A DNA stretch of 64,000 nucleotides from Hydrocarboniphaga daqingensis. GTDB lineage: Bacteria; Pseudomonadota; Gammaproteobacteria; Nevskiales; Nevskiaceae. The stretch spans positions 124,001 through 188,000 of the forward strand of contig NZ_FQWZ01000008.1 in the NCBI RefSeq assembly GCF_900129825.1, read 5' to 3'. The position numbers and the translations under genes were made by a program. Every line of letters starts with the position of its first letter. Positions within the stretch are counted from its first letter, which is position 1. Below the pieces are notes generated by a model. That model was given only the letters and a program-made list of their open reading frames with translations, made no database searches and was not told where the DNA came from. Below are positions 50,748-64,000 of the stretch, one piece after another.

Positions 50748-51260
50748 TCAGATCAGCGTGGCCGACGTGATGATGATCTGGGTCACCGGCACGTCGCGGC
50801 CAAACGGACGGGCCGAGCCGGTCGGTGTGTTGGCGATCTGATCGACGACGTCGAGCCCTTCGGTCACGGCGCCGAACACCGCATAGCCCCAGCCGTCCTG
50901 TCCCGGATAGTCGAGAAAGTCGTTGTCGCCATGATTGATGAAGAACTGGCTCGACGCGGAGTGCGGCTCGCCGGTGCGCGCCATCGCGATCGTGCCGCGC
51001 TTGTTCTTCAAGCCGTTCTTGGCTTCGTTCTGGATCGGCGCGCGCGTGCGCTTCTGGTTGTATTCGGCGTCATAGCCGCCGCCCTGGATCATGAAGCCCT
51101 TGATCACGCGGTGGAACACCAGGCCGTCGTAGTGGCCGGCCTTTACGTATTCGACGAAGTTGGCGACGGTCTTGGGTGCCTTCTCGGCGTCCAGCGACAG
51201 CGTGATGTTGCCGGCGGAGGTGCTCAGCAGCACGCGAACGGGGGTGGCGGTGTCGGTCAT
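50748..51260 (-). CDS. ppiB: Cytosolic cyclophilin-type peptidyl-prolyl isomerase
   Basis: The 170-residue product has the cyclophilin catalytic region FHRVIKGFMIQGGGYD, SQFFINHGDNDFLDY and GYAVFGAVTEGLDVVD, without signal sequence. It accelerates proline isomerisation during folding in the cytosol. Gaps of about 40 bases separate it from ppiA upstream and lpxH downstream, suggesting one operon. Confidence 0.94.
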   Translation of the reverse strand: MTDTATPVRVLLSTSAGNITLSLDAEKAPKTVANFVEYVKAGHYDGLVFHRVIKGFMIQGGGYDAEYNQKRTRAPIQNEAKNGLKNKRGTIAMARTGEPHSASSQFFINHGDNDFLDYPGQDGWGYAVFGAVTEGLDVVDQIANTPTGSARPFGRDVPVTQIIITSATLI

Positions 51261-51300
51261 CGTATAGCTCAGGTTGGGTTGTTGAATGCGGCGGCGCGCG

Positions 51301-51939
51301 TCAGCGCATCACGGCGGACAGTTGCGTGGCTTTCATGATCACCACCGGCTGCTGCGGTACATCGGTCGGAAACGGACCGCCGCGACCGGTCGGAATCGCG
51401 GCGATCTTGTCGACGACGTCCATGCCGCTGACGACGCGCCCGAACACCGTGTAGCCCCAGCCGTCGGGGTTGGGCGAATCGAGCATGCCGTTGTCGACCA
51501 GGTTGATATAGAACTCGCTGGTGCCGGAGTGAGGGCGCGCATCACGTGCCAGTGCGATCGATCCGCGCAGGTTCTTCAAGCCGTTGTCGGCTTCATTGGG
51601 CGTGCCGGGGCCGGCCTCGCGATGCTCGAAGCGCGTGTCGTAGCCACCGGCCTGCGCCATGAAGCCGGCAATCACGCGATGAAAGATCAGCCCGTCGTAG
51701 AAACCGCGATTAACGTAGCCGATGAAGTTCGCCACCGTCTTCGGTGCGCGGACGGGGTCGAGCTCGACGACGATGTCGCCTTGTGTGGTGCGCAGTTGCA
51801 CGCGCGGCAAGGCGGCGGCCGGCGCGGTGGTGGCCGGGACGGCTGTCGTCGGGGCGTTGGCCGCATCGACGCGCAACGTGATCGACGACAGCAGCAGTGC
51901 GGACAGCAGCAGATTGCGGATCATGGCGGGGGCGTTCAT
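51301..51939 (-). CDS. Secreted cyclophilin-type peptidyl-prolyl isomerase (PpiA-like)
   Basis: The 212-residue form starts MNAPAMIRNLLLSALLLSSI and has a Sec signal (cleavage near VDA-AN). The cyclophilin domain follows from about residue 47, including FHRVIAGFMAQAGGYD and TSEFYINLVDNGMLDS. I prefer the ATG 51939; an ATG at 51978 overlaps the dusA stop (TAATG) and would give a longer N-terminal region; 51924 is also possible. It acts in the periplasm. Confidence 0.88.
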   Translation of the reverse strand: MNAPAMIRNLLLSALLLSSITLRVDAANAPTTAVPATTAPAAALPRVQLRTTQGDIVVELDPVRAPKTVANFIGYVNRGFYDGLIFHRVIAGFMAQAGGYDTRFEHREAGPGTPNEADNGLKNLRGSIALARDARPHSGTSEFYINLVDNGMLDSPNPDGWGYTVFGRVVSGMDVVDKIAAIPTGRGGPFPTDVPQQPVVIMKATQLSAVMR

Positions 51940-51977
51940 TGCGAGCCGGGCAGCGATGCCCGGCTGAGGGGAGCGCA

Positions 51978-53054
51978 TTATGCCGCGACCGACGTGGACT
52001 CGGCGCTGCCCGCGACCGGGATCGCGTCGAGCAACACGTCGATGCCGGCACCGGGTGCATGGGCCCGCTCCGACAGCAGGCGACGAAATTGCCGGCCGCC
52101 GGGCTGACCCCGATACAAGCCCAGCAGATGCCGCGTGATGTGCTTCAGCGGCGTGCCCGAGGCCAGCTGGCGTTCCACATACGGGCGATAGGCCTGCAGC
52201 ACCGCTTCACGGCTCGGCAGTTGCAGCGCGGCGTCGTCGCATTCTGTTGCGGCTGCGTCACCGGCCGCCGCGCGCGCGGTGTGCGTGAACAGCGCCGCGT
52301 CCATCGCCGCCAGTGAATACGGGTTCTCGTAGGCTTCGCGACCGATCATCACACCGTCGACCTGCAACAAGTGTTGCCGACATTGCTCGACGCTGCGGAT
52401 GCCGCCATTGATGACCACGGTCAGCTGGGGAAATTCTTGCTTGAGCCGGTACACATGCTCATAGGTCAGCGGTGGGATTTCGCGGTTTTCGCGAGGCGAC
52501 AAGCCCTGCAGCCAGGCCTTGCGCGCGTGCACGATGAACACCGTGCAGCCGGCAGCGGCCACCGTTTCGACGAAGTGCTTCATGAACGCGTAGTCCTCGC
52601 AGTCGTCGACGCCGATGCGGTGCTTGACCGTCACCGGCAGATCGGTGGCGCGGCGCATCGCTGCGACCGACGCGGCGACGCGCTGCGGATCTCGCATCAG
52701 GCAGGCGCCGAAGCTGCCTTCCTGCACCCGGTCCGACGGGCAGCCGCAGTTCAGATTCACTTCGTCGTATTGCCAGGTCGCGGCCAGCTCGGCGCAGCGC
52801 GCCAGCGCCTCCGGGTCTGAGCCGCCGAGCTGCAGCGCCAGCGGATGCTCGCTGGCGTCGTAGCGCAGGTGCCGCGCCACGTCGCCGTGCAGCAGTGCGC
52901 CGGTCGTCACCATCTCGGTGTACAGCAAGGCGTTGGGCGCCAGCAGTCTATGAAAGCTCCGGCAATGCGTGTCCGTCCAATCCATCATCGGGGCGACGCA
53001 CAAGCGGTGCAGGGCAGGGGCGGCGGGCGGTGGCGCCGCGTTGGGAGTTGTCAT
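51978..53054 (-). CDS. dusA: DusA, tRNA-dihydrouridine(20/20a) synthase
   Basis: DusA reduces uridines 20 and 20a of tRNA with FMN. The product (358 residues from ATG 53054) has the FMN barrel with VAPMMDWTDTHCRSF, LGGSDPEALA, and the catalytic cysteine in NLNCGCPSDRVQEGSFGACLM. The DusA subgroup is shown by LTYEHVYRLKQEFP and INGGIRSVEQ. A GTG five codons earlier is not needed. The C-terminal 25 residues are extra and low-complexity. Confidence 0.93.
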   Translation of the reverse strand: MTTPNAAPPPAAPALHRLCVAPMMDWTDTHCRSFHRLLAPNALLYTEMVTTGALLHGDVARHLRYDASEHPLALQLGGSDPEALARCAELAATWQYDEVNLNCGCPSDRVQEGSFGACLMRDPQRVAASVAAMRRATDLPVTVKHRIGVDDCEDYAFMKHFVETVAAAGCTVFIVHARKAWLQGLSPRENREIPPLTYEHVYRLKQEFPQLTVVINGGIRSVEQCRQHLLQVDGVMIGREAYENPYSLAAMDAALFTHTARAAAGDAAATECDDAALQLPSREAVLQAYRPYVERQLASGTPLKHITRHLLGLYRGQPGGRQFRRLLSERAHAPGAGIDVLLDAIPVAGSAESTSVAA

Positions 53055-53214
53055 CGAGATACACACCACGGAAGCAGGCGGATCGCTCCGCCCCGGTCGG
53101 TTCGGCGCTCAGTGTCGCATAGCGCCGGTGCCGGCCCTATGGCCGCGCCTACGGCGCAACACGCGTTCAGCTCGATCCCCGATAATCCGGGCAGACCCTC
53201 CGGAGCGTTATTCG

Positions 53215-53784
53215 ATGATCAAAGGCAGCCAGACCCGTACCGCCGACCACGCAGTCGAGCCGTTGTTCGTCGACCGCTGGTCGCCCCGCGCGATGTCGGG
53301 TGAGGCGATCGAGCCCGCGCAGCTGATGCGCTTGTTCGAGGCCGCACGCTGGGCGCCGTCCGCAATGAATGCGCAGCCCTGGCGTTTGCTGTATGCGCGC
53401 CGCGATACCCAGCAGTGGCCGCTGTTCTTTGACCTGCTGGTGCCGGCCAACCAGCTGTGGGTGTCTCAGGCTGCTGCGCTGGTGCTGATCGTGTCCGACA
53501 AGGCGCAGGGCACCCACAGCTTCGACACCGGCGCGGCGTGGCAGAACCTCGCACTGCAGGGCATGGCGCAGGGCTTGGTCGTGCACGGCATGGCCGGTTT
53601 CGACTACGCGGCCGCTGCGACCCGCTTGCAGATTCCCGAAGGCTTCAAGGTCGAGGCGATGGTCGCGATCGGCAAGCCGGGGCCGCTGAGCGCACTGCCG
53701 GAAAAGCTGCAGTCACGCGAATCGCCGAGCCCGCGGCGTCCGCTGTCCGAGACGATCTGCGAAGGCGTATTCACGTTCCAGTAG
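53215..53784 (+). CDS. Nitroreductase family protein
   Basis: The product of 189 residues is a small FMN-type nitroreductase. Segments are VDRWSPRAMSGEAIE (FMN-phosphate Arg-Ser), ARWAPSAMNAQPWRLLYA, GAAWQNLALQGMAQGLVVH and AMVAIGKPG. I use the ATG 53215 with GGAG nine bases upstream; the longer open frame overlaps dusA on the other strand. It likely reduces nitro, quinone or other electrophilic compounds with NAD(P)H. It is convergent with the alkylsulfatase-type gene. Confidence 0.88.
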   Translation: MIKGSQTRTADHAVEPLFVDRWSPRAMSGEAIEPAQLMRLFEAARWAPSAMNAQPWRLLYARRDTQQWPLFFDLLVPANQLWVSQAAALVLIVSDKAQGTHSFDTGAAWQNLALQGMAQGLVVHGMAGFDYAAAATRLQIPEGFKVEAMVAIGKPGPLSALPEKLQSRESPSPRRPLSETICEGVFTFQ

Positions 53785-53814: not shown

Positions 53815-55533
53815 TCATTGCGGCTCGAACAGCTGCATAAAGCGGACGAAGTCGAGCTTGCTGCCGCGCTCCATGTCGAAGTCTCTGGCGATCGCCATGG
53901 CCGGGCTGCGCAGCCCGGCCAGTGTTTCCTTGAACACCTGCGTCGGCACGCGCACTTGCAGCGCCACGTCGTCGGCAATGCCCGCCTGCAGTTCGCTGAC
54001 GCCGCGCCGCACGGTATAGGTGTAGCGCGCATCGGGGTCGGTGAAGATCAGGCCGACGCGGATCACTTGGTCGAGCGTGTCTTCGGCGTGCAGGTTCACC
54101 GCCATGCCGTCGAAGAACACACGCAGTGGCATGCCGGCCAGCATCGCGGCGCTCGGCTTGCCTTCGCGTCGCGGCACGCTGAAGTCGCCGGCCAAGGTAT
54201 GCGCGCTGGTGTAGTACCAGTCGCGCGCGGGTGGGTTGGTTTCGGCGTCGGCCAGCGCACGCAGCGCGGCGATCCGCGCATCACGCGCGGCAGCGTGCTG
54301 CGGCGCCACGCGCAGTGCATAGCCGCTCAGTTGTAGCGCCCACTGCCAGTCTTTTGCCTCGATGGCGGCTGTGATCTGCCGGTCGACCGCCTCGAGCCCG
54401 CCTGCGAGCGCGACGATCCGCTGTGCTTGCGCATCGGGCGGCAGCGGTTGCAGCTCGGCCGGGTCGCCGCTGTACCACCCGAGATTGCCGGCAAAGATCG
54501 ACTTGGCGCTCCACGACGGCTTGCCATAGAACGGCTGCAAGTACGGCGATGCCGCCAGATGTGGCGGCAGTTGCAGCTGCTGGGCGATCTCATCCGGCAG
54601 CAGGCCACGGTTCATCAAGCGCAGCGTCTGGTCGTGAACGTAGCGGATCGCGTCGCGGTAGTCGGTCAGCACGCTGGCGATCGGGTCGGCGCCGCTCAAG
54701 GGTCGTGAATGGCTCGGCACCAGGTAGCGCGGCTGCAGCGCGCGCATCGCATCCAGCGAAGCCGCCCAGCGCTTCGGATCGCGATACCGCGTGCCGCGGA
54801 TCGTGTACAGGTTTGGAAATGCCTTGTAGAAGTTGTCGCCGCACAGCAACACGCCGCGCTGCGGCAGCCATACCAGAATCTGGTCATCCGTTTCGCCGGG
54901 CGCGTGGCGCAGTTGCAAGTCGATGCCGGCGATCCGCAGGTCGAGTTGTTCGCCGAACGTCTGGGTCGGGCGCACCGTATCGAGCGTGGACTCGGCGTCC
55001 AAGTTCAGAAAGCCGCCGATGCCGATGTTGACGCGCTCGCCTTGCGGCAGCTTGGTGCCGTACATGTGCAGCGAGCGCTGCGTGATGACCGGCTGCAACT
55101 CGCTGGCGAGTTGGTCCATGTGGGCGCCGACGTCATCGTGGGCGATCACCGCAACGCCCGGCCCGGCGAACTCGGCGGCGCCACCGATATGGTCGGGGTG
55201 AGAGTGCGTGTAGATCACGGCCTTGATCGGCTTGCGGCTGATCGCGGCGAACTCGGCATGCACCTGTGCGGCGGCCTGACGGGATTCCATCGTGTCGACG
55301 ATCACCAGGCCGTCGTCGCCTTCCAGCAGGATCGAATTGGCGATGCCGTAGCCGATCGCGACCCAGACGCCATCGGTGACCTTGATCACCTCGCGGCGAA
55401 ACTCGGCGCTGTGTTCGGTCAGCGCCTCTGGGCTCGGTGCATCGACCGCCGCTGCCGGCGCTGCACCGCGCTCGCAAGCGGCAAGCATCACACACAGGCT
55501 GGCCGTCAGCGTGGCTGTCAGCATCGACTTCAT
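53815..55533 (-). CDS. MBL-fold alkylsulfatase-type lipoprotein (SdsA/YjcS-like)
   Basis: The 572-residue product starts with a lipoprotein signal ending VMLAAC (Cys20), then an MBL domain with HSHPDH (His110, His112, Asp114, His115) and GDNFYKAFPNLYTIRGT. The alkylsulfatase dimerisation region is clear (SIFAGNLGWYSGDPAELQPLPP), and a C-terminal SCP2-like segment follows (about 455-570). The metal-site residue that is Glu in SdsA (AEN) reads Asp (GDN). Type III alkylsulfatases cleave primary or secondary alkyl sulfate esters. The start overlaps the upstream GST stop (ATGA) with GGAG seven bases before. It is last in the eight-gene block. Confidence 0.82.
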   Translation of the reverse strand: MKSMLTATLTASLCVMLAACERGAAPAAAVDAPSPEALTEHSAEFRREVIKVTDGVWVAIGYGIANSILLEGDDGLVIVDTMESRQAAAQVHAEFAAISRKPIKAVIYTHSHPDHIGGAAEFAGPGVAVIAHDDVGAHMDQLASELQPVITQRSLHMYGTKLPQGERVNIGIGGFLNLDAESTLDTVRPTQTFGEQLDLRIAGIDLQLRHAPGETDDQILVWLPQRGVLLCGDNFYKAFPNLYTIRGTRYRDPKRWAASLDAMRALQPRYLVPSHSRPLSGADPIASVLTDYRDAIRYVHDQTLRLMNRGLLPDEIAQQLQLPPHLAASPYLQPFYGKPSWSAKSIFAGNLGWYSGDPAELQPLPPDAQAQRIVALAGGLEAVDRQITAAIEAKDWQWALQLSGYALRVAPQHAAARDARIAALRALADAETNPPARDWYYTSAHTLAGDFSVPRREGKPSAAMLAGMPLRVFFDGMAVNLHAEDTLDQVIRVGLIFTDPDARYTYTVRRGVSELQAGIADDVALQVRVPTQVFKETLAGLRSPAMAIARDFDMERGSKLDFVRFMQLFEPQ

Positions 55534-56717
55534 CGAGTATCTCCGTCAGACGGGGCACGCGTCTTGGGTGCATGCCAATGGGTGCCGGTAAAGAAGCGGC
55601 GCAGTCGTTCGGCTGCGCCGTATCGGCGCGGTCTGCAGACCGGCGGCGTTACGTCGTCATACAAGCCGGACGCGATCGTACCGTCGGCGAGCAATACATC
55701 GAGCGCGCCGGCCTGCTGCAAGCGTGCGTCGACGAGCGCGCGCACGGCCTCGGGTAGCGCGGTGCGGTGCTGCTGCAGCCGTTCGCGGCACCAGACGCGG
55801 TACTGCACGACCGGCAAGCGTCGATACAACGTGCCTTGAATCTCGACGTCGAATCGACGCCGCCCGTCGCGCCACGCGCGCGCATTGGCCAGCAGATAGG
55901 GCAGGTAGCCGCTGCCGACGTCATCCAGCAACGGACCCCAGCCGTCGGGTAGCGTACCGGGCGCGCACCAAGAGCCGAGCCGGGCGTCGTCGTAACGCGC
56001 GTTCCACATGCGAGCGACCCAGGCCAGCACGGCCGGAGCGCGCTGCTGCATGATCAGGCTCGGCGTCGGGTCGAGGCTAAAGTGGCGGAACATCGACGCA
56101 AAAAAGCCGAAGTCGGCCAAGCTCGGACGCCCGCCCAGCAGATAGTCCTGCTGCTCGAACAGCGCATGAAGGCGGTCCAGTGTATTCAGGTAGATCGACT
56201 CGACGTGCGCCCGCGTCGAGGCCGTCACCCCATCGCCATCGACGTAGATCCGCCGCTGGCGGCGACGCACCATCGCGGCGATCAGCGGGGCCGGCAGCGG
56301 ATGCCGCGATAGAAAGGTCTCGGCGAAACGCCGCGACAGCGCATGCGAATCGCTGGCGTAGCTCCAGCGATAATGCAGCGCCGGGCGCCACAGCCACTCG
56401 TCAGCGTAGTCTTCGAGCAAGCGGCTGAAGAACGCCTGGTACGCATCCTCCGGTATCACGCTGCCTTGCGGATGGCGCGCTTCGAACCAGTCGATCATCG
56501 GCGTCGTGTCGGCCAGCCATTGACCTTGCGGCGTGCGGATCGCCGGGACCTTCATCAAGCCGGTGTTCGGCAGCACATCGCGCATCAACTCGCCGCTCCA
56601 CTGCGCTTCGATCTCGACGTGCGCGATCCGCTTGTAGCGCAGGTATGCCTGCATCTTGCCGCTGAAGTACGAGATCCAGAACAGGTACAGCGTATACGGT
56701 TGCTCGGGCTGGCTCAT
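55530..56717 (-). CDS. Long GST-like protein, copy 1
   Basis: The 395-residue product is nearly twice the length of a usual GST. An N-terminal thioredoxin-like domain (about 7-85, with YFSGKMQAYLRYKRI and MKVPAIRTP) is followed by a helical GST C-terminal-like region (about 95-260, with HYRWSY and LGGRPSLADFGFFA) and a 110-residue extension with GSGYLPYLLANA. The equivalent of the usual glutathione-contact segment reads LADTTPMIDW. It is paralogous to the next gene upstream, with overlapping start/stop (ATGA). Function unknown; GST activity is inferred from the fold. Confidence 0.75.
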   Translation of the reverse strand: MSQPEQPYTLYLFWISYFSGKMQAYLRYKRIAHVEIEAQWSGELMRDVLPNTGLMKVPAIRTPQGQWLADTTPMIDWFEARHPQGSVIPEDAYQAFFSRLLEDYADEWLWRPALHYRWSYASDSHALSRRFAETFLSRHPLPAPLIAAMVRRRQRRIYVDGDGVTASTRAHVESIYLNTLDRLHALFEQQDYLLGGRPSLADFGFFASMFRHFSLDPTPSLIMQQRAPAVLAWVARMWNARYDDARLGSWCAPGTLPDGWGPLLDDVGSGYLPYLLANARAWRDGRRRFDVEIQGTLYRRLPVVQYRVWCRERLQQHRTALPEAVRALVDARLQQAGALDVLLADGTIASGLYDDVTPPVCRPRRYGAAERLRRFFTGTHWHAPKTRAPSDGDTR

Positions 56718-57853
56718 GCGTCGGTGACGACCAGGCGATTGTGCTCGCGACCCAGTCGATGGCGCGGATGGATGTCGAGCGCGCTGCGGTCGCCAAGTGC
56801 GTGCAGCAGGTCGTCGACCGCTGCGCGCGGTACGGTCGGCAGCCCGGCGCAATAGTCGAGCGGGCGCTGCAGCATCCATTGAGCGTATGGGAAGATCGCG
56901 CGCTCGGCTTCGATATCGCCGAGCCGAAACCGATGCCGGCCGATCACGCGCGGGATACGCCGTCCAGGGTGATCGTCGATCCACTGATCGAGCCGGCTGA
57001 CGGTGTCACGCAGGATCGGCAGATAGTCGGTGAACAGGTCACGCAGCACCGGCATCAGCGTTTCCGGGATCGCATCGTTCGCGACGTAGTCACCGATCGG
57101 CGGGGTGCTGGTGTTCATCCGCTGCACCCAGGCGTAGACCTGCGGAGCACGCTGCCGCATCAGCGCCAGCGGGTAGAAGTCGCGACCCAGATGTGCGTAC
57201 AGCGGCCCGATCAGTCCGAAATCGCCGATGCCGGCGCGCTCGCCCAGCAGATAGCGGTGTGCGCTGAAGTGGGCGTTGAGTTGGTCGAGCAGGCGCTCGT
57301 AGCGCGCTTCGATCTCGGGGATCGTCTCATTCGTAATGCCCAGCATCGGCAGCGCGCCAGCGAACGGACGGCAAGCGCGGCGCCCGAAGAACCGACGCAG
57401 CCAGCGCGGCGCATGGGGTGACAGCAGTAAGCCGAAGTGTTCGAGTACATCGTCGATGTGCTCGCGTTCGTGCCAGAAGCTCCAGCGGTAGTGCATACCC
57501 GGCATCAGCATCCATTCGTCGCCGAGAATCTCCAGCAGCAGCGCAGCCAGATGCTGGCGCGGCGTGTCCGGATAGACCGACCGCTGCGGATAGCGCGACT
57601 CCAGCGCATCGATGATCACCGTGCTGTCCTGAATGAACTCGCCATCTCGCGTCTCGATCACCGGGATGTACTTGACCCCGGTACGCGGCACGATCACGCG
57701 GCGGAACACGTTCAGCGTCGACAGTGTTTCGCGATACGCGATGCCCTTGTAGCGCAGATAGCTGCGTACCTTGCCGCTGTAGTAGGAGTGCGGCAGCGCG
57801 TACAACGTGATGTCGGGCGTAATGTCGGGCGCGACCTCGGCGGCGCGGCTCAT
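56714..57853 (-). CDS. Long GST-like protein, copy 2
   Basis: The 379-residue product shares its layout with copy 1: YYSGKVRSYLRYKGI (24-38), VKYIPVIETRDGEFIQDSTV with the cis-Pro and Gln/Asp-Ser, MHYRWSF, LLGERAGIGDFGLIGPLYAHL, and a C-terminal extension containing FTDYLPILRDT. The two genes likely arose by tandem duplication and then diverged well beyond the signature segments. Start is ATG 57853, four bases after the SDR stop. Confidence 0.75.
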   Translation of the reverse strand: MSRAAEVAPDITPDITLYALPHSYYSGKVRSYLRYKGIAYRETLSTLNVFRRVIVPRTGVKYIPVIETRDGEFIQDSTVIIDALESRYPQRSVYPDTPRQHLAALLLEILGDEWMLMPGMHYRWSFWHEREHIDDVLEHFGLLLSPHAPRWLRRFFGRRACRPFAGALPMLGITNETIPEIEARYERLLDQLNAHFSAHRYLLGERAGIGDFGLIGPLYAHLGRDFYPLALMRQRAPQVYAWVQRMNTSTPPIGDYVANDAIPETLMPVLRDLFTDYLPILRDTVSRLDQWIDDHPGRRIPRVIGRHRFRLGDIEAERAIFPYAQWMLQRPLDYCAGLPTVPRAAVDDLLHALGDRSALDIHPRHRLGREHNRLVVTDA

Positions 57854-57857
57854 CGGC

Positions 57858-58661
57858 TCAACCCCGAATCATGCGCGCCAGCAGGCCGGGCACGATCCGA
57901 TGCATCAGCGCGGCCATCCGCGCTTCCCGGCCGGGATACACGAGAGCCTGATTGCGTTCGATGGCGCGCAGCGTGCAGCGCGCCACTTCGTCCGGCATCA
58001 GCGTCGACCGGGCGAAGTCGCGGTCGACGCGGGCCCGGGAGCGCGGCGTATCGAGCGCGCCCACGAGCTTGACCTTGGACTGGATCGGTGTGCGCACGAA
58101 GCCAGGGCACACGGTGCTGACGCCGATCTGGTAGCGGTGCAGGTCGGCGCGTAGGGATTCGCTCAAGCCGACGACGGCGAATTTGCTGGCACTGTAGGTG
58201 GCCATGCCGCCGACGCCGACGAAGCCCGACACTGAGGCCATGTTGACGATGTGCCCGCCGCCGCCGCGCTGGATCATCAGCGGCACGAATGCGCGGATGC
58301 CGTGAACCACACCCATCACGTTGATCTCGTGCAGCCTTCGCCAATCGTCGGGCTCGACTTCCCAACACAAGCCGCCCATCACCACGCCGGCGTTGTTGAT
58401 CAGAATGTCGACCGGCTGATTATTCTGCTGCATCTGTGCGGCCAGCGCTTGCATCGCGGAGTCGTCGGCCACGTCGGCCGCATGAACCTGTGCCTGCGCG
58501 CCCAGTGCCGAGCAGCGCGCTTGCACAGCAGCCAGGCGCTCGGTATCGCGTCCGCACAGCACGACGCTGGCACCCGCGTGCGCCAATGCCACGGCGATCG
58601 ACTCGCCGATTCCGCTGCTGGCGCCGGTGATCACGGCCCGCTTTCCTTGAATGCGACTCAC
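57858..58661 (-). CDS. Short-chain dehydrogenase/reductase
   Basis: The 267-residue product is a classical SDR with the nucleotide motif TGASSGIG (12-19), NNAG, catalytic Ser143, and YxxxK at Tyr156/Lys160 (YSASKFAVVG). The GRD at 37-39 leaves cofactor preference open. It starts at GTG 58661 with AGGAG nine bases upstream. It lies between the DUF3604 lipoprotein (45-base gap) and the GST pair (four-base gap), so it should act with them, probably as an alcohol/ketone oxidoreductase. Confidence 0.88.
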   Translation of the reverse strand: MSRIQGKRAVITGASSGIGESIAVALAHAGASVVLCGRDTERLAAVQARCSALGAQAQVHAADVADDSAMQALAAQMQQNNQPVDILINNAGVVMGGLCWEVEPDDWRRLHEINVMGVVHGIRAFVPLMIQRGGGGHIVNMASVSGFVGVGGMATYSASKFAVVGLSESLRADLHRYQIGVSTVCPGFVRTPIQSKVKLVGALDTPRSRARVDRDFARSTLMPDEVARCTLRAIERNQALVYPGREARMAALMHRIVPGLLARMIRG

Positions 58662-58706
58662 GTCGTGCTGCTCCTGATGGTGTCTTGATGGGATGGCTCG
58701 ACGCGG

Positions 58707-60980
58707 TCAGCGCGTGGCACTGGCGTCGTACCAGATCGGCGAGGCCCAAGCGCGCTCTTCGATCGTGTTGAATGTGCGCGTGCCGCGAAAACGCCCCGGC
58801 TCGCCGCTGACCGCGCAGCAGCCTTCGAAGCCGCGCAGTCCGCTGTCGGCGGCGAATTCGCCGTTGGCCGGGTCGATCCGGCTGCAGTCGACCGGCTGGC
58901 TCTGGCACAGCCGCTCACTCCACCTGCAACTTGGGATTTCGACCGCACGGGCGTAGTAGAACGCATCGCGGGACGACGCGAAGTCGGAGTCGCTCCAGAC
59001 CGCGCACAGCTGCTCGGGATGGCGGCCGACCGCGAGGCTGCAATCGCGCGTCGACGGCAGTTGCACCGGCTCGCTGGTGCGCGCGATGCCGCTGAACACC
59101 TGCACCTTGGGCTGACGCGCCGCATCGATATAGCCCTTGACCAGATCGAGCCGCTGCAGCGGCGCGCCGGGATTGCGGCCACCGGCATCCTGCATCGCCC
59201 ACACCGCGATCTGCGGTGCGGTGCGGCCCGGTGGCGCGGGCGGCAAGGCGCCGCCCATGCGTGCACCTCGCAGGCCTTGGTCGATCAAGTCGTCGCCGCG
59301 CGCGAGGCGCTGGCAGATGTCGCCCGGCAGCGGGTCCCAGCTGGCAAAGCTGCGGATGCGCATCCGTGGTCCGGAGGTCGCAAACGTTTCGCCGCGATGC
59401 ACCGCATTCCAGATATCGCCGCGCGTGTTCTGTTCGGCCCAGACACCGGCCAGTCCGCCTGGGTTGAACGCCCGCGCACGATCCAGAAACTGGCGATTGC
59501 TGCAGGCGGCTGGATCGTGCGGGTCTTCGCGTGCGTTGTCGCAGCTCCACAGGCCGAGCTGGTCGCTGGGTTCGTCATCGAGTACGCCGCCGTGGCCGCC
59601 CCAGCCGACTTCGTCGACATATCCCGCGACGCCGTTGTGCGTGTCCGACGAGCCGATGAAGCCCATCTGGTACGGATTGATGCCGCCGAGTTCCTGCTTG
59701 ACGCGCAAGCCTTCCGCCAGCGCGTTGCGGACCATGTCGAGCGGCGCCGTGCAGTTGACGCTAGGGCCGGAGCCGCCATTAGGGCCGACGGTCTGGCACG
59801 GTGCCACGGCGTAGGTCGGCTGCTGGCGCAAGCCGCAAAATGGCGGATCGCGGCCCGGATCGCCGCTGCAATAGCGCGCGCAAACGGGCGGGTCGGTCGG
59901 CAGCCCGGTGCAAACGCTCTTGGCCAGTTCGAACGTGCACGCGTCTTCCTCGCCTTGCAGATACGGGCCTTCCAGGCCGGCGGCGCATTCTGAGTTGCCC
60001 TTGTGCTGGTGGATTTCGATCGAGCGATCCATGTCGGCGCGCAGCTGCGCGTCGCTGCGCGTCAGCGTCAGGCCGTCGCGGCCGACGGGCAGACCGGTCT
60101 GAGGGTCCGGCGGCAGAAACATGCGCCCGTCGGACAGATTGGCGCTGTGCGGGATCGTCAGCGCGCGGCAGCCATCGGCCTCGACGCAGTGGTCGCGCAA
60201 ATGGTCGAACAGCCGCCACTCATCGTTGGTGTTGTTGTCGATCAGCAGGTCGGTGATCTGCTCCGACCCGAACACGTCGGCGGGCAGCGCATCGCCGAGA
60301 AACAGCACGTTACGATGCAGCATCTGGCCGGTTTTCTGCGACGTGTACTCGTAGCCGTGCAGCGTCGTGAATGTGCAGGGCTGGTTTTCTTCGTCGGTGA
60401 TGCGGATCTGGTTCTGCCAGGCGATACGCGGCAGCGGCAACACGGTCAGGCCGGTCAGCAACACTTGCGTGGCGAACGGCGTATCGCCATTGACCAGCGC
60501 GTTGATGTTGCGCCGGGTGTTCTGGCCGATCAGATTGCAGGCCGGATTGACGCCCGATGGCAGCGCGCCACCGGCCTCGCAGATCGTCGAGAACTCGCCC
60601 AGGTATTCGGCATGGTCGGTGACAGCCGTGAAGTCGAGCGGACGGTCGAGCTGGATCTGGCGCGTCGCGGTATTCGGATCGGCATCGCCTGAAGGCAGGC
60701 CCGCGACCTCGCCCTTGGCGAACCGATACGCTTCACGCGGACCGTTGATCGAGTTGAAGAAGTAGGCGTCGAACGAGTCGCTGGTATGGATATGCAAGTC
60801 GCCGAAGTACGCGTTCTTATGCCCAGCGACGCGATTGCTGCAGCCGCCGTCGGGGAGCGGTGTCGGCGCGACTGCCTCAATCGGCGCCGTCGGCGAATTG
60901 GCAGCGCCGCAAGCCGACAGCGCCAGCGCGATCGCCGTCGTCATCGTCATTGATCTGAGCAGAGCAGGGGTCTGGATCAT
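58707..60980 (-). CDS. DUF3604 lipoprotein with PHP-like metal motifs
   Basis: The 757-residue product carries a lipoprotein signal ending ALSAC (Cys24) and belongs to the DUF3604 family, which resembles PHP-fold metal-dependent phosphoesterases. Metal motifs are GDLHIHT (His63, His65), VTDHAEY (Asp122-His123) and GSSDTHNGV further on. I count 25 cysteines, 24 besides the lipobox, suggesting many disulfides in the periplasm. ATG 60980 with GGGAG ten bases before is preferred over TTG 60989. It is five bases after the HupE-like gene. Substrate unknown. Confidence 0.85.
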   Translation of the reverse strand: MIQTPALLRSMTMTTAIALALSACGAANSPTAPIEAVAPTPLPDGGCSNRVAGHKNAYFGDLHIHTSDSFDAYFFNSINGPREAYRFAKGEVAGLPSGDADPNTATRQIQLDRPLDFTAVTDHAEYLGEFSTICEAGGALPSGVNPACNLIGQNTRRNINALVNGDTPFATQVLLTGLTVLPLPRIAWQNQIRITDEENQPCTFTTLHGYEYTSQKTGQMLHRNVLFLGDALPADVFGSEQITDLLIDNNTNDEWRLFDHLRDHCVEADGCRALTIPHSANLSDGRMFLPPDPQTGLPVGRDGLTLTRSDAQLRADMDRSIEIHQHKGNSECAAGLEGPYLQGEEDACTFELAKSVCTGLPTDPPVCARYCSGDPGRDPPFCGLRQQPTYAVAPCQTVGPNGGSGPSVNCTAPLDMVRNALAEGLRVKQELGGINPYQMGFIGSSDTHNGVAGYVDEVGWGGHGGVLDDEPSDQLGLWSCDNAREDPHDPAACSNRQFLDRARAFNPGGLAGVWAEQNTRGDIWNAVHRGETFATSGPRMRIRSFASWDPLPGDICQRLARGDDLIDQGLRGARMGGALPPAPPGRTAPQIAVWAMQDAGGRNPGAPLQRLDLVKGYIDAARQPKVQVFSGIARTSEPVQLPSTRDCSLAVGRHPEQLCAVWSDSDFASSRDAFYYARAVEIPSCRWSERLCQSQPVDCSRIDPANGEFAADSGLRGFEGCCAVSGEPGRFRGTRTFNTIEERAWASPIWYDASATR

Positions 60981-60985
60981 CACCG

Positions 60986-62026
60986 TCAAGCTCCCAAAAT
61001 CAGCGTGAGTCTTTGCAGGAACCAGGCAGCCGACAGGGCGCCGATCATCGTCAGCGGCAGGCGTCGCAGCAGGGGCGGCGGCGATGCGTGGCGCAGCAAG
61101 CGCAACGCGATCAGCGCCGAGGCTGCAAACAGCAGCTGTCCGATCTCGACGCCAACGTTAAACAGCAGCAGCGCCCACAGCTGCGCCCCGTCCGGCAGGC
61201 CGGTTTGCTGCAAGCCGCCGGCAAAACCCAGCCCGTGCAGCAGCCCGAATACGAACGCGATCAGCCACGGTTGGCGCTGACTCAGGGTGGTAAGCGGCAG
61301 CGCGCCACGTGACAGCTCCACGGCCAGCAGCAAGATCGACGCGGCGATCAGTGCTTCGACGCTGGCCGATGGCAGTGACAGACCAGCGAGCACGGCCAGC
61401 GCCATCGTCAGGCTGTGCGCCAGCGTGAAGGCAGTGATCGTGGCCAGCAGCGGCCGTAGCGGCACTGCGCCATCGGTGGGTGCGCGAGCACGAACCAACA
61501 GCAGCAAGCACAGCACGAACAGCAGATGATCCCAGCCGCCCAGTACGTGCTCAATGCCGATCGGCAGATAAGCGCCCAGCGTGGTCGTCGGTGATGCGAC
61601 GCCGGGGTCGCCGATGTCGATGCGGGCATGGTCGCGGTTGACCGCGTAATCGACGCGTGTGCCATCGGCGCGCCGCAGCGATACCAGCCCGTCAGGTACC
61701 AGCGCGCTGAATCCGTTGATCTTCAGGGCGCGCCCGCTGAGTCCACCGCTGCATTGCAGTGCAAGGCTCTGCAACAGACTGTCGCCTTGGGCGTCGATAC
61801 GCGCGCCGGGAAGGGGCTGACACGCGGGCTCGATGTCGAGCTCGATCGCGGCGACATCGCCGCTGCGGAACTGCGGCAGCTTCAGCCGTAGTTCGACACG
61901 TCCATCGGCGTGTTCGTCGATGCCGGCGAAGAACGGCCGGATCTCATGACCGTGGGCGGGGCTCGCGACGGCCATCAGCAAGGTGGCGATCAAGCCGGTG
62001 ACGCCGCGCATCGGGCGCGACGTCAT
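60986..62026 (-). CDS. HupE/UreJ-like membrane protein with N-terminal periplasmic domain
   Basis: The 346-residue product has a signal sequence (cleavage near HG-HE at 26), a soluble beta-rich region (27-150), and seven or so membrane helices (152-345). Conserved histidines typical of the family are His160 (GIEH), His167 (GGWDHLLF), His204 (FTLAHS) and His264 (FGLLHGLGFA). HupE/UreJ proteins are linked to nickel uptake, but this long secreted variant is of unknown role. The start overlaps the PpiC stop by four bases. It is located in the inner membrane. Confidence 0.82.
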   Translation of the reverse strand: MTSRPMRGVTGLIATLLMAVASPAHGHEIRPFFAGIDEHADGRVELRLKLPQFRSGDVAAIELDIEPACQPLPGARIDAQGDSLLQSLALQCSGGLSGRALKINGFSALVPDGLVSLRRADGTRVDYAVNRDHARIDIGDPGVASPTTTLGAYLPIGIEHVLGGWDHLLFVLCLLLLVRARAPTDGAVPLRPLLATITAFTLAHSLTMALAVLAGLSLPSASVEALIAASILLLAVELSRGALPLTTLSQRQPWLIAFVFGLLHGLGFAGGLQQTGLPDGAQLWALLLFNVGVEIGQLLFAASALIALRLLRHASPPPLLRRLPLTMIGALSAAWFLQRLTLILGA

Positions 62027-62874
62027 GACGCGTCGCCGGCTTGATAGACCACGTCGTAGCGCGCGCGTAGTGCGTCGAGTGCGCGACGGTTGGCTTGTTC
62101 GCGACGCGCTTGACGGCAGTCGATCAACACTTGGCGACGCACAGTGTCCAGACTCGCAGGGCGCCACGGCTGGCGTTCGATGACGCGCACGCGATGCAAG
62201 CCCAGCGCGCTGGTGATCGGCGTCGACCAAGCGCCGATCGGCTGCTCAGAAACGACTTTTGCAAAGGCCGAACCGAAGTGTCGCTGCAGATCGGCCTGGC
62301 TTTGCCGTAACCAGCGCGTGCCGCCCGGTAGCGGGTCACTGAGTGCATCCAGATCCGGTGCGTCGTGCAGCAGCGCCACGTTCAGTGCCGCAAGCCGCTG
62401 CTCGACGCTGATGCCGGCTGGTTGCGCGCGGCTGATGAAAACCTGCTCGAACGACATCCTGGCCGGTTCACCGTAGCGTTCCGCGTGCTGGTCCAGCCAC
62501 TGCTGCAGGTCAGCTTCGGTGGGTTCGTCGATGGGGTGCGTGTCTTCAAGCAGAAAGCGCAGCTTCTGCTGCAGTTCGCGGCGCACGATGGGGTCGGACT
62601 CATGCAGCCGCAGCGCCAGCGCCTCGCGTACCAGCACCTCGTCGTCGATCCAGCGCTGCGCCAGTGCATCGAGTTCGGTGGCGTCGGGCAGACGTCCGCT
62701 GGCTTCGCGGAAGCGCTGTTCCAGTTCCAGCCGCTGCGCGGCCGGCACGACGATCCGCGTCGCCGCCGTGGCACCGGGTGTACGCGGCCATAGCGCTTGC
62801 ACGCCGAGCAGCAGCGCGCCCAGCAGTAGAAACTGCGGTAGCGGATCGGACAGCCAGCGGCGCAGCCGGGTCAT
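62023..62874 (-). CDS. PpiC-type peptidyl-prolyl isomerase, membrane-anchored
   Basis: The 283-residue product has one N-terminal membrane helix (about 13-30), a SurA-like helical N-domain (about 40-125) and a parvulin-like domain (about 130-245, including FEQVFISRAQPAG and GAWSTPITSALGLHRVRV). It probably folds periplasmic or outer-membrane clients, perhaps products of this operon. It starts 12 bases after the sulfatase and overlaps the HupE-like gene by four bases. Confidence 0.82.
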   Translation of the reverse strand: MTRLRRWLSDPLPQFLLLGALLLGVQALWPRTPGATAATRIVVPAAQRLELEQRFREASGRLPDATELDALAQRWIDDEVLVREALALRLHESDPIVRRELQQKLRFLLEDTHPIDEPTEADLQQWLDQHAERYGEPARMSFEQVFISRAQPAGISVEQRLAALNVALLHDAPDLDALSDPLPGGTRWLRQSQADLQRHFGSAFAKVVSEQPIGAWSTPITSALGLHRVRVIERQPWRPASLDTVRRQVLIDCRQARREQANRRALDALRARYDVVYQAGDAS

Positions 62875-62886
62875 CGCGCGCGTCGA

Positions 62887-64000
62887 CTACAGCTGGAACA
62901 TCAGCGTCGGTCCCGGATGCTCGCGGCCATCGTCGAAGCCGATCTCATCCTCGATCAGCGCATTGATCTTGGCATTCAGCGCCAGGATCAGCTCGCGATG
63001 TGCTTCGGGCTCGTGCGCGAGATTGGTGATCTCGTCCGGGTCGGTCTGCGTGTCGTACAGCTCCAACTCGTTATGCGCCAGCAGCGTCTGCCAGTCCTTC
63101 GGTACGTGGTGCTGGTCGGGCCGGAAGTAGCGCGCGAACTTGTAGCGGCCGTCGTGTACGCCGCGGAACAGGCCGGGATGGTCGAGCCGCGGCGATAGCC
63201 GCCCTTGCGCAAGGTTGGCTTTGATCAGCGACAGCCATGTCGCGTCTTCGCCGCGCTTGAAGATCGCCGCTGCGGCTTCCGGGTCGACGTAGAGCATCGT
63301 GTTGTAGTCATACAGCAGGCCTTTGTCGTCGCGTGCTGTGCGCGCCTTGGCATCGGCAAGCGCCGGCGTCAGATCGACGCCTTTCAGCGCGGGGTAGCGC
63401 GCCTGGCGCTGTGCATCGTCGACGCCGGCCACGCTCAGCAAGGTCGGCAGCAAGTCGATCGGTCCGGCCAGTGCTTGTGTCTGAATGCCGCTGCGATAGG
63501 CCGGGTGGCGCACGATCAACGGCACGCGCACGTTTTCCTTGTACATGGTCGGGCCTTTCTGACGCAGCCCGTGCGCACCGAGCATGTCGCCATGGTCGGC
63601 GGTGTAGACGATCACCGTGTTGTCGTCCAAGCCCAGCTTCTGCAGCGTGTCGAGCACGGTCATCGCATGCGCGTCGACGTCGCGGATACAGTTGTAGTAA
63701 TAGCTCTGGTAGCGCCGCCAGCGGCGCTCGTCATCGCGGTCGATGCGGCCGTACAACGCGTTGCAGAACTCGACGTACGAGCGCTGCGCCCAGGGCTTGG
63801 TGGTCAGATCGTCGGCGTAATAGCTGCGCGGCAGCGGAAGATCCCAGTCGGTCTTGTAGACCCCTTCGGCCGGCGGCGGTGCCAGTGGCGACAGAAAGTC
63901 GCGGTGGAGTCGCGTGCGCGTTTGCTGGAGGTCGACATCGTCGAAGAACACGATGTCGTGGGGGTTGACGAAGTTGACCGCCAGCAGCCACGGTTGGTCG
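62887..64000 (-). CDS. Sulfatase (type I), C-terminal part; gene begins beyond the window
   Basis: The partial product is at least 371 residues and belongs to the formylglycine-dependent sulfatase/alkaline-phosphatase superfamily. Visible segments are VNFVNPHD, DNTVIVYTADHGDMLGAHGLRQKGPTMYKENVRVPLIVRHP with its key YTADHGD, GPIDLLPTLLSVAGV and the C-terminal LYDTQTDPDEITNLA. The frame is open to base 64000 with no start. The active-site Cys/Ser is expected upstream of the window, so formylglycine maturation cannot be judged. It is first (or early) in the eight-gene block. Confidence 0.85.
   Translation of the reverse strand, partial: DQPWLLAVNFVNPHDIVFFDDVDLQQTRTRLHRDFLSPLAPPPAEGVYKTDWDLPLPRSYYADDLTTKPWAQRSYVEFCNALYGRIDRDDERRWRRYQSYYYNCIRDVDAHAMTVLDTLQKLGLDDNTVIVYTADHGDMLGAHGLRQKGPTMYKENVRVPLIVRHPAYRSGIQTQALAGPIDLLPTLLSVAGVDDAQRQARYPALKGVDLTPALADAKARTARDDKGLLYDYNTMLYVDPEAAAAIFKRGEDATWLSLIKANLAQGRLSPRLDHPGLFRGVHDGRYKFARYFRPDQHHVPKDWQTLLAHNELELYDTQTDPDEITNLAHEPEAHRELILALNAKINALIEDEIGFDDGREHPGPTLMFQL

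Follow-up and report, generated by a model that had tools for sequence, protein, structure and literature searches.

Operon anatomy

What does a bacterium gain from two unrelated sulfatase classes in one run of genes with a dehydrogenase and glutathione S-transferases (GSTs)? This question is raised by one end of a 64,000-nucleotide stretch of Hydrocarboniphaga daqingensis DNA (contig NZ_FQWZ01000008.1, positions 124,001 to 188,000; hereafter the window), which sits in a 3.79-Mb genome. A preliminary description of the window had delineated a block of eight minus-strand genes encoding, in transcriptional order, a formylglycine-type (S1) sulfatase, a PpiC-type isomerase, a HupE/UreJ-like protein, a DUF3604 lipoprotein, a short-chain dehydrogenase/reductase (SDR), two long GSTs and an alkylsulfatase, and Pfam bore out all of its domain calls (Sulfatase, Rotamase_2, HupE_UreJ_2, DUF3604, adh_short, GST twice, and Alkyl_sulf_dimr/Lactamase_B). 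The block is real and incomplete: the window end cuts the S1 sulfatase gene and hides three more genes, MBL2, DsbA2 and DsbA1, and the full unit is eleven co-directional genes. Our favoured reading, to which we give about an even chance, is that they form an operon that breaks down a sulfate ester of hydrophobic or amphipathic character.

The genes are tightly packed. From the S1 sulfatase to the alkylsulfatase, the open reading frame (ORF) coordinates reproduced the spacings described earlier, with several starts checked: 12 bases, an ATGA overlap, 5, 45 and 4 bases, and two further ATGA overlaps. The 5-base HupE-DUF3604 spacing assumes a DUF3604 ATG at 60980, and an alternative TTG at 60989 would turn it into an overlap. 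Past the window end, MBL2 and the S1 sulfatase are separated by 51 bp, the DsbA2/MBL2 and DsbA1/DsbA2 pairs overlap by 4 bp each, and a 180-bp divergent intergenic region upstream of DsbA1, followed by a DUF1329 gene, bounds the unit. This spacing suggests that all eleven genes may be carried on a single transcript. The 45-bp gap between the DUF3604 and SDR genes (58662-58706), named in the preliminary description as the place where a break would tell against it, contains no promoter- or terminator-like pattern; the promoter scan was blank across the whole region, hence it bears little weight on promoters. Minus-strand terminator-like sites elsewhere numbered seven, every one within a gene, and the scan total was 10 against 5.0 (sd 2.6) in shuffled sequences.

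Two sulfatase classes and a plausible third

The last gene of the operon (53815-55533, minus strand, as are all eleven) encodes a predicted S3 (SdsA1/Pisa1-type) alkylsulfatase lipoprotein of 572 aa with the lipobox LAAC. Its metallo-beta-lactamase (MBL), dimerisation (Alkyl_sulf_dimr) and C-terminal domains score over the Pfam cut-offs (PF14863, PF14864 and PF00753), and among PDB chains it matched PSdsA, sec-alkylsulfatase and SdsA1 with E values no higher than 5.7e-58, aligning with SdsA1 (2cfu) across residues 45-511 (E 5.7e-58). The zinc motif HxHxDH reads HSHPDH, and the S3 sulfate-loop pattern is matched by GDNFYKAFPNLYTIRGTRYR; the SulfAtlas paper (PMC5066984, section 11) gives this pattern, and its authors count 7 false positives for it in about 2000 sequences. 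Both HxHxDH and the loop pattern are found in 7/7 cassette alkylsulfatases (that of the window, plus six genomes seen as 12 rows). In the PDB alignments the window protein carries D-N, as does sec-alkylsulfatase, at the place where SdsA1 has E-N. Domains, zinc motif and sulfate loop are therefore those of the SdsA1/Pisa1 S3 alkylsulfatases, whereas the window protein is shorter than the 633-668 aa of the PDB chains, is a predicted lipoprotein, and shares its operon with GSTs and further classes of sulfatase.

The S1 sulfatase gene occupies 62887-64000 in the window and runs to window-equivalent position 64668. Its full product of 593 aa matches PF00884 (140 bits) and SGSH_C, and carries a twin-arginine motif (SRREFA) and a lipobox (LGGC), as expected of a Tat-type lipoprotein. 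The S1 core C-S-P-S-R is present with its Cys and Arg kept (read by eye), and the PS00149-type signature, GYYTAYKGKWH in the window protein, was matched in 11/11 aligned rows. The genome holds eight PF00884 matches, this one included, and three PF03781 matches over cut-off that represent putative formylglycine-generating enzymes. Taken at the level of families and motifs, these data support the presence of two sulfatase classes, S1 and S3, in the operon.

Directly upstream of the S1 gene lies MBL2 (window-equivalent 64720-65766, 348 aa), whose HxHxDH motif is HLHSDH. Its best PDB match, and nearest solved relative, is 8gyg, named 'Arysulfatase' (E 6.4e-25), followed by PNGM-1 (1.5e-19) and RNase Z. 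Since SulfAtlas family S4 is placed beside RNase Z in the excerpted text of PMC5066984, and MBL2 is RNase Z-like, it is plausible that MBL2 is an S4-like sulfatase and thereby a third class. With its HxHxDH motif, its RNase Z likeness and the arylsulfatase 8gyg as top match, it may come closest, among known enzymes, to the S4 arylsulfatase AtsA of Pseudoalteromonas carrageenovora; a difference is its hydrophobic N-terminus. An operon that pairs S1 with S3, and probably with S4 as well, points to a substrate or substrate family beyond the reach of any single sulfatase.

Predicted export signals divide the unit. Lipoboxes were found in the DUF3604, S3 and S1 proteins, the twin-arginine motif in S1, and a hydrophobic N-terminus in MBL2; the same scan returned no export-type N-terminal signal in the GSTs and DsbA proteins. 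The N-terminus of PpiC is hydrophobic by eye and falls below the scan threshold, and a hydrophobic stretch flagged in the SDR is, on reading, presumably the start of the dinucleotide-binding region.

The cassette across the order

We searched 85 genomes of the order, of which 33 had DUF3604 matches at E <= 1e-20, and fetched 28 loci (set A) chosen by similarity to the window DUF3604, with two loci contributed by one genome (G049) and three by another (G057). Because the cassette profiles derive from relatives of the window proteins, they can miss remote members elsewhere. Among these 28 loci we found MBL2 in 18, GST2 in 15, GST1 in 14, DsbA2 in 12, S3 in 6 and S1 in 5. Of the profiles for PpiC, HupE, MBL2, the GSTs, DsbA2, S3 and S1, PpiC alone was found in control loci, once; SDR counts carry a background (3/20 controls) and were excluded as evidence.

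All eleven genes stand in order in only one genome besides the window, G038, which seems to be Solimonas aquatica DSM 25927. Ten of eleven are present in G014 and G020, apparently metagenome-assembled genomes (MAGs), both without HupE. Five more genomes hold partial versions: G058, probably Stenotrophobium rhamnosiphilum GT1R17, is without HupE and an adjacent GST1; in G059, seemingly a Nevskiaceae MAG, the S1 sulfatase is absent and no GST1 is adjacent; G023, seemingly a Nevskia MAG, shows DUF3604-SDR-GST1-GST2-S3 starting at a contig end; in G046 the S1 sulfatase gene is next to DUF3604-SDR, with no S3 there; and G026, described below, has both sulfatases but no DUF3604. The combination of two sulfatase classes, SDR and GSTs, which the preliminary description had staked on co-occurrence beyond this strain, does recur outside it. 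A GST2 search of named genomes, of which the best 80 of 487 matches were considered, agreed: at a GST2 identity of at least 68%, 6/6 named loci carry the cassette, whole or partial, and it is absent from two Myxococcales/Myxococcota loci at 56-59%.

Orthologues of the S1 sulfatase at >=65% identity occur in 7/85 genomes, with two more at 39-43%, and GST2 orthologues at >=68% likewise in 7/85; the two are found together in five genomes (hypergeometric p 1.3e-5, kinship ignored). The S3 protein is commoner, with 32 places at >=49% identity. In a midpoint-rooted tree of 24 of these 32 places (places near 30% were excluded, and the 16 non-cassette places are those fetched out of 24), a branch with 95/92 support separates the eight cassette copies, which come from four genera, from the 16 others. 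One genus, g9, contributes five of those 16 in addition to a cassette copy. Within the stretches read, 11 of the 16 non-cassette loci have a cassette-neighbourhood family other than the SDR and five have none, and several such families meet at three loci (L223, L231, L236). In the genus of the window strain, the cassette is present in 1/4 genomes, and the other three are without a GST2 or S1 orthologue at those identity levels. The cassette thus looks like one evolutionary unit with a patchy distribution, and the operon is conserved yet modular, with separable parts. In the literature searched, no paper joined alkylsulfatase, glutathione S-transferase, arylsulfatase and gene cluster.

A different S3 pairing was seen in Comamonadaceae, where, among the matches listed, three loci (L113, L120, L124) have an S3-type alkylsulfatase immediately before a long GST.

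DUF3604 and its partners

The DUF3604 lipoprotein (58707-60980; PF12228, 410 bits; lipobox LSAC) is preceded by the HupE/UreJ_2 membrane protein (60986-62026, 346 aa; PF13795, 145 bits; four hydrophobic stretches) and the PpiC-type (Rotamase_2) peptidyl-prolyl isomerase (62023-62874; PF13145, 46.5 bits). The latter two had been described as a secretion and folding module, an interpretation that gave way when 20 DUF3604 loci of the phylum were compared with 20 controls. A search of 398 phylum genomes found 26 with the DUF3604 family at E <= 1e-30; the 20 loci come from 19 genomes, three being cut by contig ends, and the control loci were placed at chosen, not random, offsets in the same or related genomes. 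HupE and PpiC were each present at 16/20 DUF3604 loci, compared with 0/20 and 1/20 controls (the latter weak, 30 bits), and each remained at 14/20 when only same-strand genes no more than 8 kb away were counted. Among the order loci, PpiC was found at 26/28 and HupE at 22/28, both being missing at two short-contig loci (L052, L058). A second DUF3604 gene of the window genome, on contig 9 (L007, 58000-77000), is also adjoined by PpiC and HupE, and this stretch has no cassette GST or sulfatase match. PpiC-HupE-DUF3604 is accordingly a phylum-wide unit in which DUF3604 seems to have PpiC and HupE as its partners. At three further loci (L064, L091, L156), two or three DUF3604 genes are clustered.

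What DUF3604 itself does is suggested mainly by its motifs. An alignment of ten rows (the window protein plus nine, two partial) conserves GDLHxHTxxSxDA, [TS][DE]H, IPH and [ST]D[TN]H, with the second motif reading TEH in three of ten rows, and a pattern scan confirmed the motifs in the window protein. We take these to be PHP-type metal motifs (of the DLHxHT, TDH, H, DxH kind). A profile of 31 DUF3604 proteins gave an hhalign probability of 71% over 49 columns to one PHP-like protein encoded in the window genome, itself at 22.2 bits versus the PF02811 cut-off of 26.4, and probabilities of 0.1 and 1.6% to two PHP proteins over that cut-off; the profile match lends modest support to a PHP-like assignment. 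No convincing sequence relative was found among solved structures (best PDB E 0.52). The structural route was not productive: the model was poor (pLDDT 55), Foldseek gave 0 matches at E <= 0.001, VIA-align placed its rows mostly on the C-terminal beta domain (best Z 7.4, all <8), and no PHP protein was named in the 50 rows shown by Foldseek or VIA-align for this low-confidence model.

DUF3604 is nearly absent from the literature searched, where one paper of 5.39 million contains the name, a study of Chlamydia mutagenesis to judge by its title; the same literature held no paper with PF12228, PF13795 or HupE_UreJ_2, and none joining HupE, UreJ, peptidyl-prolyl and sulfatase. With two constant partners across the phylum and, in one order, a context of sulfate esters and glutathione, the function of the family becomes testable in a cultured strain.

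A dehydrogenase with long glutathione S-transferases

The SDR (57858-58661; PF00106, adh_short, 194 bits) is followed by GST1 (56714-57853, 379 aa; PF13417 and GST_C_2) and GST2 (55530-56717, 395 aa; PF13417 and GST_C, scored on the longer ORF 55530-56984), which are 33% identical over 356 columns. GST2 extends about 150 C-terminal residues past the Pfam GST domains. The GST2 model (pLDDT 89.8) had StyI of Gordonia (9qd3) as its top Foldseek match, with a TM score of 0.72 by target length and 18% identity, and LigF and LigE also appeared among the matches. IsoI is the nearest NCBIfam model for the GSTs, at 30.8 and 25.7 bits against an equivalog cut-off of 300. An SDR beside two GSTs, a GST2 fold nearest StyI and profiles nearest IsoI resemble the logic of the isoHIJ and styI/J modules; in contrast to these, the GSTs score far below the IsoI cut-off, which leaves them outside the IsoI/StyI module proper, and GST2 carries the additional C-terminal region. 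In the respective papers, StyI forms a glutathione adduct from styrene oxide (PMC8552685), and epoxyisoprene is conjugated by IsoI and oxidised by IsoH (PMC10057887). Human GSTT2 is listed with 1-menaphthyl sulfate as a substrate in an excerpt of PMC10452860, which is the basis for a bolder possibility, that the long GSTs themselves remove sulfate by displacement from allylic or benzylic sulfates. Plasmid carriage of GST2 was considered and set aside, with four weak matches in the plasmid collection searched and none over 80% of the query.

At the upstream end, DsbA2 (window-equivalent 65763-66407, 214 aa) matches PF01323. DsbA1 (window-equivalent 66404-67156, 250 aa) is called divergent DsbA-like because it aligns with DsbA2 (27% identity, 194 columns, E 6e-07).

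Proposed pathway and competing explanations

Beyond the divergent region, DUF1329, a lipoprotein without Pfam family, an AraC-type regulator and a DUF1302 protein are encoded. DUF1302/DUF1329 homologues have been tied to growth on monoterpenes and on Tween20 (excerpts of PMC6394551 and PMC10866462, respectively). AmeAB of Castellaniella and PP_0765/PP_0766 of Pseudomonas putida belong to the families of these neighbours, whereas in the window genome the two flank sulfatases. By analogy these neighbours suggest hydrophobic substrates, and since an alkylsulfatase family is present as well, a hydrophobic compound is suggested for the operon; the alkyl or steroid-like substrate proposed earlier is a guess.

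In the catabolic reading that we favour, the compound would be taken up by the neighbouring outer-membrane DUF1302/DUF1329 proteins and would lose its sulfate to periplasmic, lipid- or membrane-anchored hydrolases, namely the S1, S3 and S4-like MBL proteins. DUF3604, as a PHP-like metal-dependent hydrolase, might cut a further ester, with PpiC assisting its folding and the HupE-like protein possibly providing the metal. In the cytoplasm, the SDR, both long GSTs and the DsbA-like proteins, perhaps of the kappa-GST type, would then process the liberated alcohol or epoxide-type product in steps akin to the isoprene and styrene glutathione routes, and the AraC-type protein may regulate the whole. 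What the data establish is the gene arrangement, the family assignments, the conserved motifs of the hydrolases and the co-conservation. The tight spacing of eleven genes, export signals on the hydrolases with none on the GSTs and DsbA proteins, and recurrence in four genera speak for this scheme. In a bolder and rather doubtful extension, DUF3604 would be a new class of periplasmic PHP-type metallohydrolase that keeps a dedicated PpiC chaperone and a HupE-type metal channel across the phylum, and in this lineage it would join three convergent classes of sulfatase and the long GSTs in one desulfation machine.

Several observations weigh against such a scheme. Neither of the published S1 catalytic signatures was exactly matched in any of the 11 rows; by eye, the departure is one residue, a T in the initial position. 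The published Ca-binding-1 and additional (P...H) signatures were also exactly matched in 0/11, and the S1 assignment therefore draws only on the PF00884 domain, well over its cut-off, and the core residues. NCBIfam places MBL2 nearest RNase Z, below cut-offs, and DsbA1 has neither a Pfam family, even at E 1, nor a PDB match. No monooxygenase, CoA-transferase or aldehyde dehydrogenase was found by Pfam among the eleven genes, unlike the iso and sty clusters. HupE is absent from four order loci (L047-L050) that retain PpiC and DUF3604, and is thus not indispensable. The co-conservation that the preliminary description had proposed to look for holds within the order, where S1, S3, SDR and GSTs recur with DUF3604; at the profile threshold used, sulfatases, GSTs, MBL2 and DsbA were found in 0/20 phylum-wide DUF3604 loci. 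The parts also occur in other assortments. G026 carries DsbA1-DsbA2-S1-SDR-GST1-S3-MBL2 with no DUF3604 at E 1e-20 and no PpiC, HupE or GST2, and Perlucidibaca aquatica (L135) carries AraC-DsbA-MBL2-PpiC-like-HupE-DUF3604-GST1-GST2, its PpiC-like protein below the Pfam cut-off, with no S1, S3 or SDR matches; a Moraxellaceae MAG (L132) gave the same tblastn match set as L135 plus a DUF3604 match.

Could the operon serve protection instead? Sulfated electrophilic or surfactant-like xenobiotics would then be desulfated outside and glutathione-conjugated inside, with no carbon feed. The unit does combine two GSTs with a pair of DsbA-like proteins, the genes examined contain no recognisable complete catabolic route, and a published DUF1302/DUF1329 cluster is part of a monoterpene efflux system. 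Several hydrolase types, however, seem excessive for that purpose, and an SDR beside GSTs fits glutathione-adduct metabolism (excerpt of PMC10057887), and we regard detoxification as unlikely. Quite improbable, in our judgement, is that phosphate or phosphonate esters are the main targets, the sulfatase-family proteins acting as promiscuous phosphodiesterases in the service of DUF3604 as a PHP-type phosphoesterase. This would account for the PHP-like motifs, the missed S1 signatures, the phosphonate monoester hydrolases among the PDB matches of the S1 protein and the RNase Z likeness of MBL2, but the S3 protein carries a sulfate loop whose pattern has few reported false positives in the excerpted source, and the closest structure to MBL2 is an arylsulfatase.

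Sulfatases and GSTs are usually degradative, which counts against the idea that the operon makes or remodels a sulfated lipid of the envelope as part of a tailoring or export pathway. Sulfotransferase, glycosyltransferase and acyltransferase families are also absent from the Pfam matches of the operon genes, and we hold this explanation to be very improbable even with DUF1302/DUF1329 genes, whose products are outer-membrane and periplasmic in the excerpted published cases, adjoining the hydrolases. The remotest of the explanations weighed is that the genes were acquired separately and form a mosaic without a common pathway. Separable modules and a patchy distribution, down to one of four genomes in the genus itself, are what a mosaic would leave behind, but gene order is kept across genera, the cassette alkylsulfatases group together in the tree, and the partners recur in shuffled but overlapping sets.

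Further features of the loci

The lipoprotein without Pfam family in the DUF1302/DUF1329 neighbourhood (L005, 8722-10140) has relatives that adjoin S3 alkylsulfatases at 8/16 non-cassette loci, making it the most frequent neighbourhood family there. In G026, an extra PF00884 sulfatase gene (L220, 14553-16265) adjoins the cassette. Downstream of the operon, a plus-strand gene that appears nitroreductase-like on reading (52969-53784) converges on the S3 alkylsulfatase gene, and a plus-strand terminator-like hairpin (53898-53921) lies just past it, within the 3' end of the alkylsulfatase gene. Further along the window, two adjoining genes at 50748-51978 have the appearance, on reading, of cyclophilin-type isomerases.

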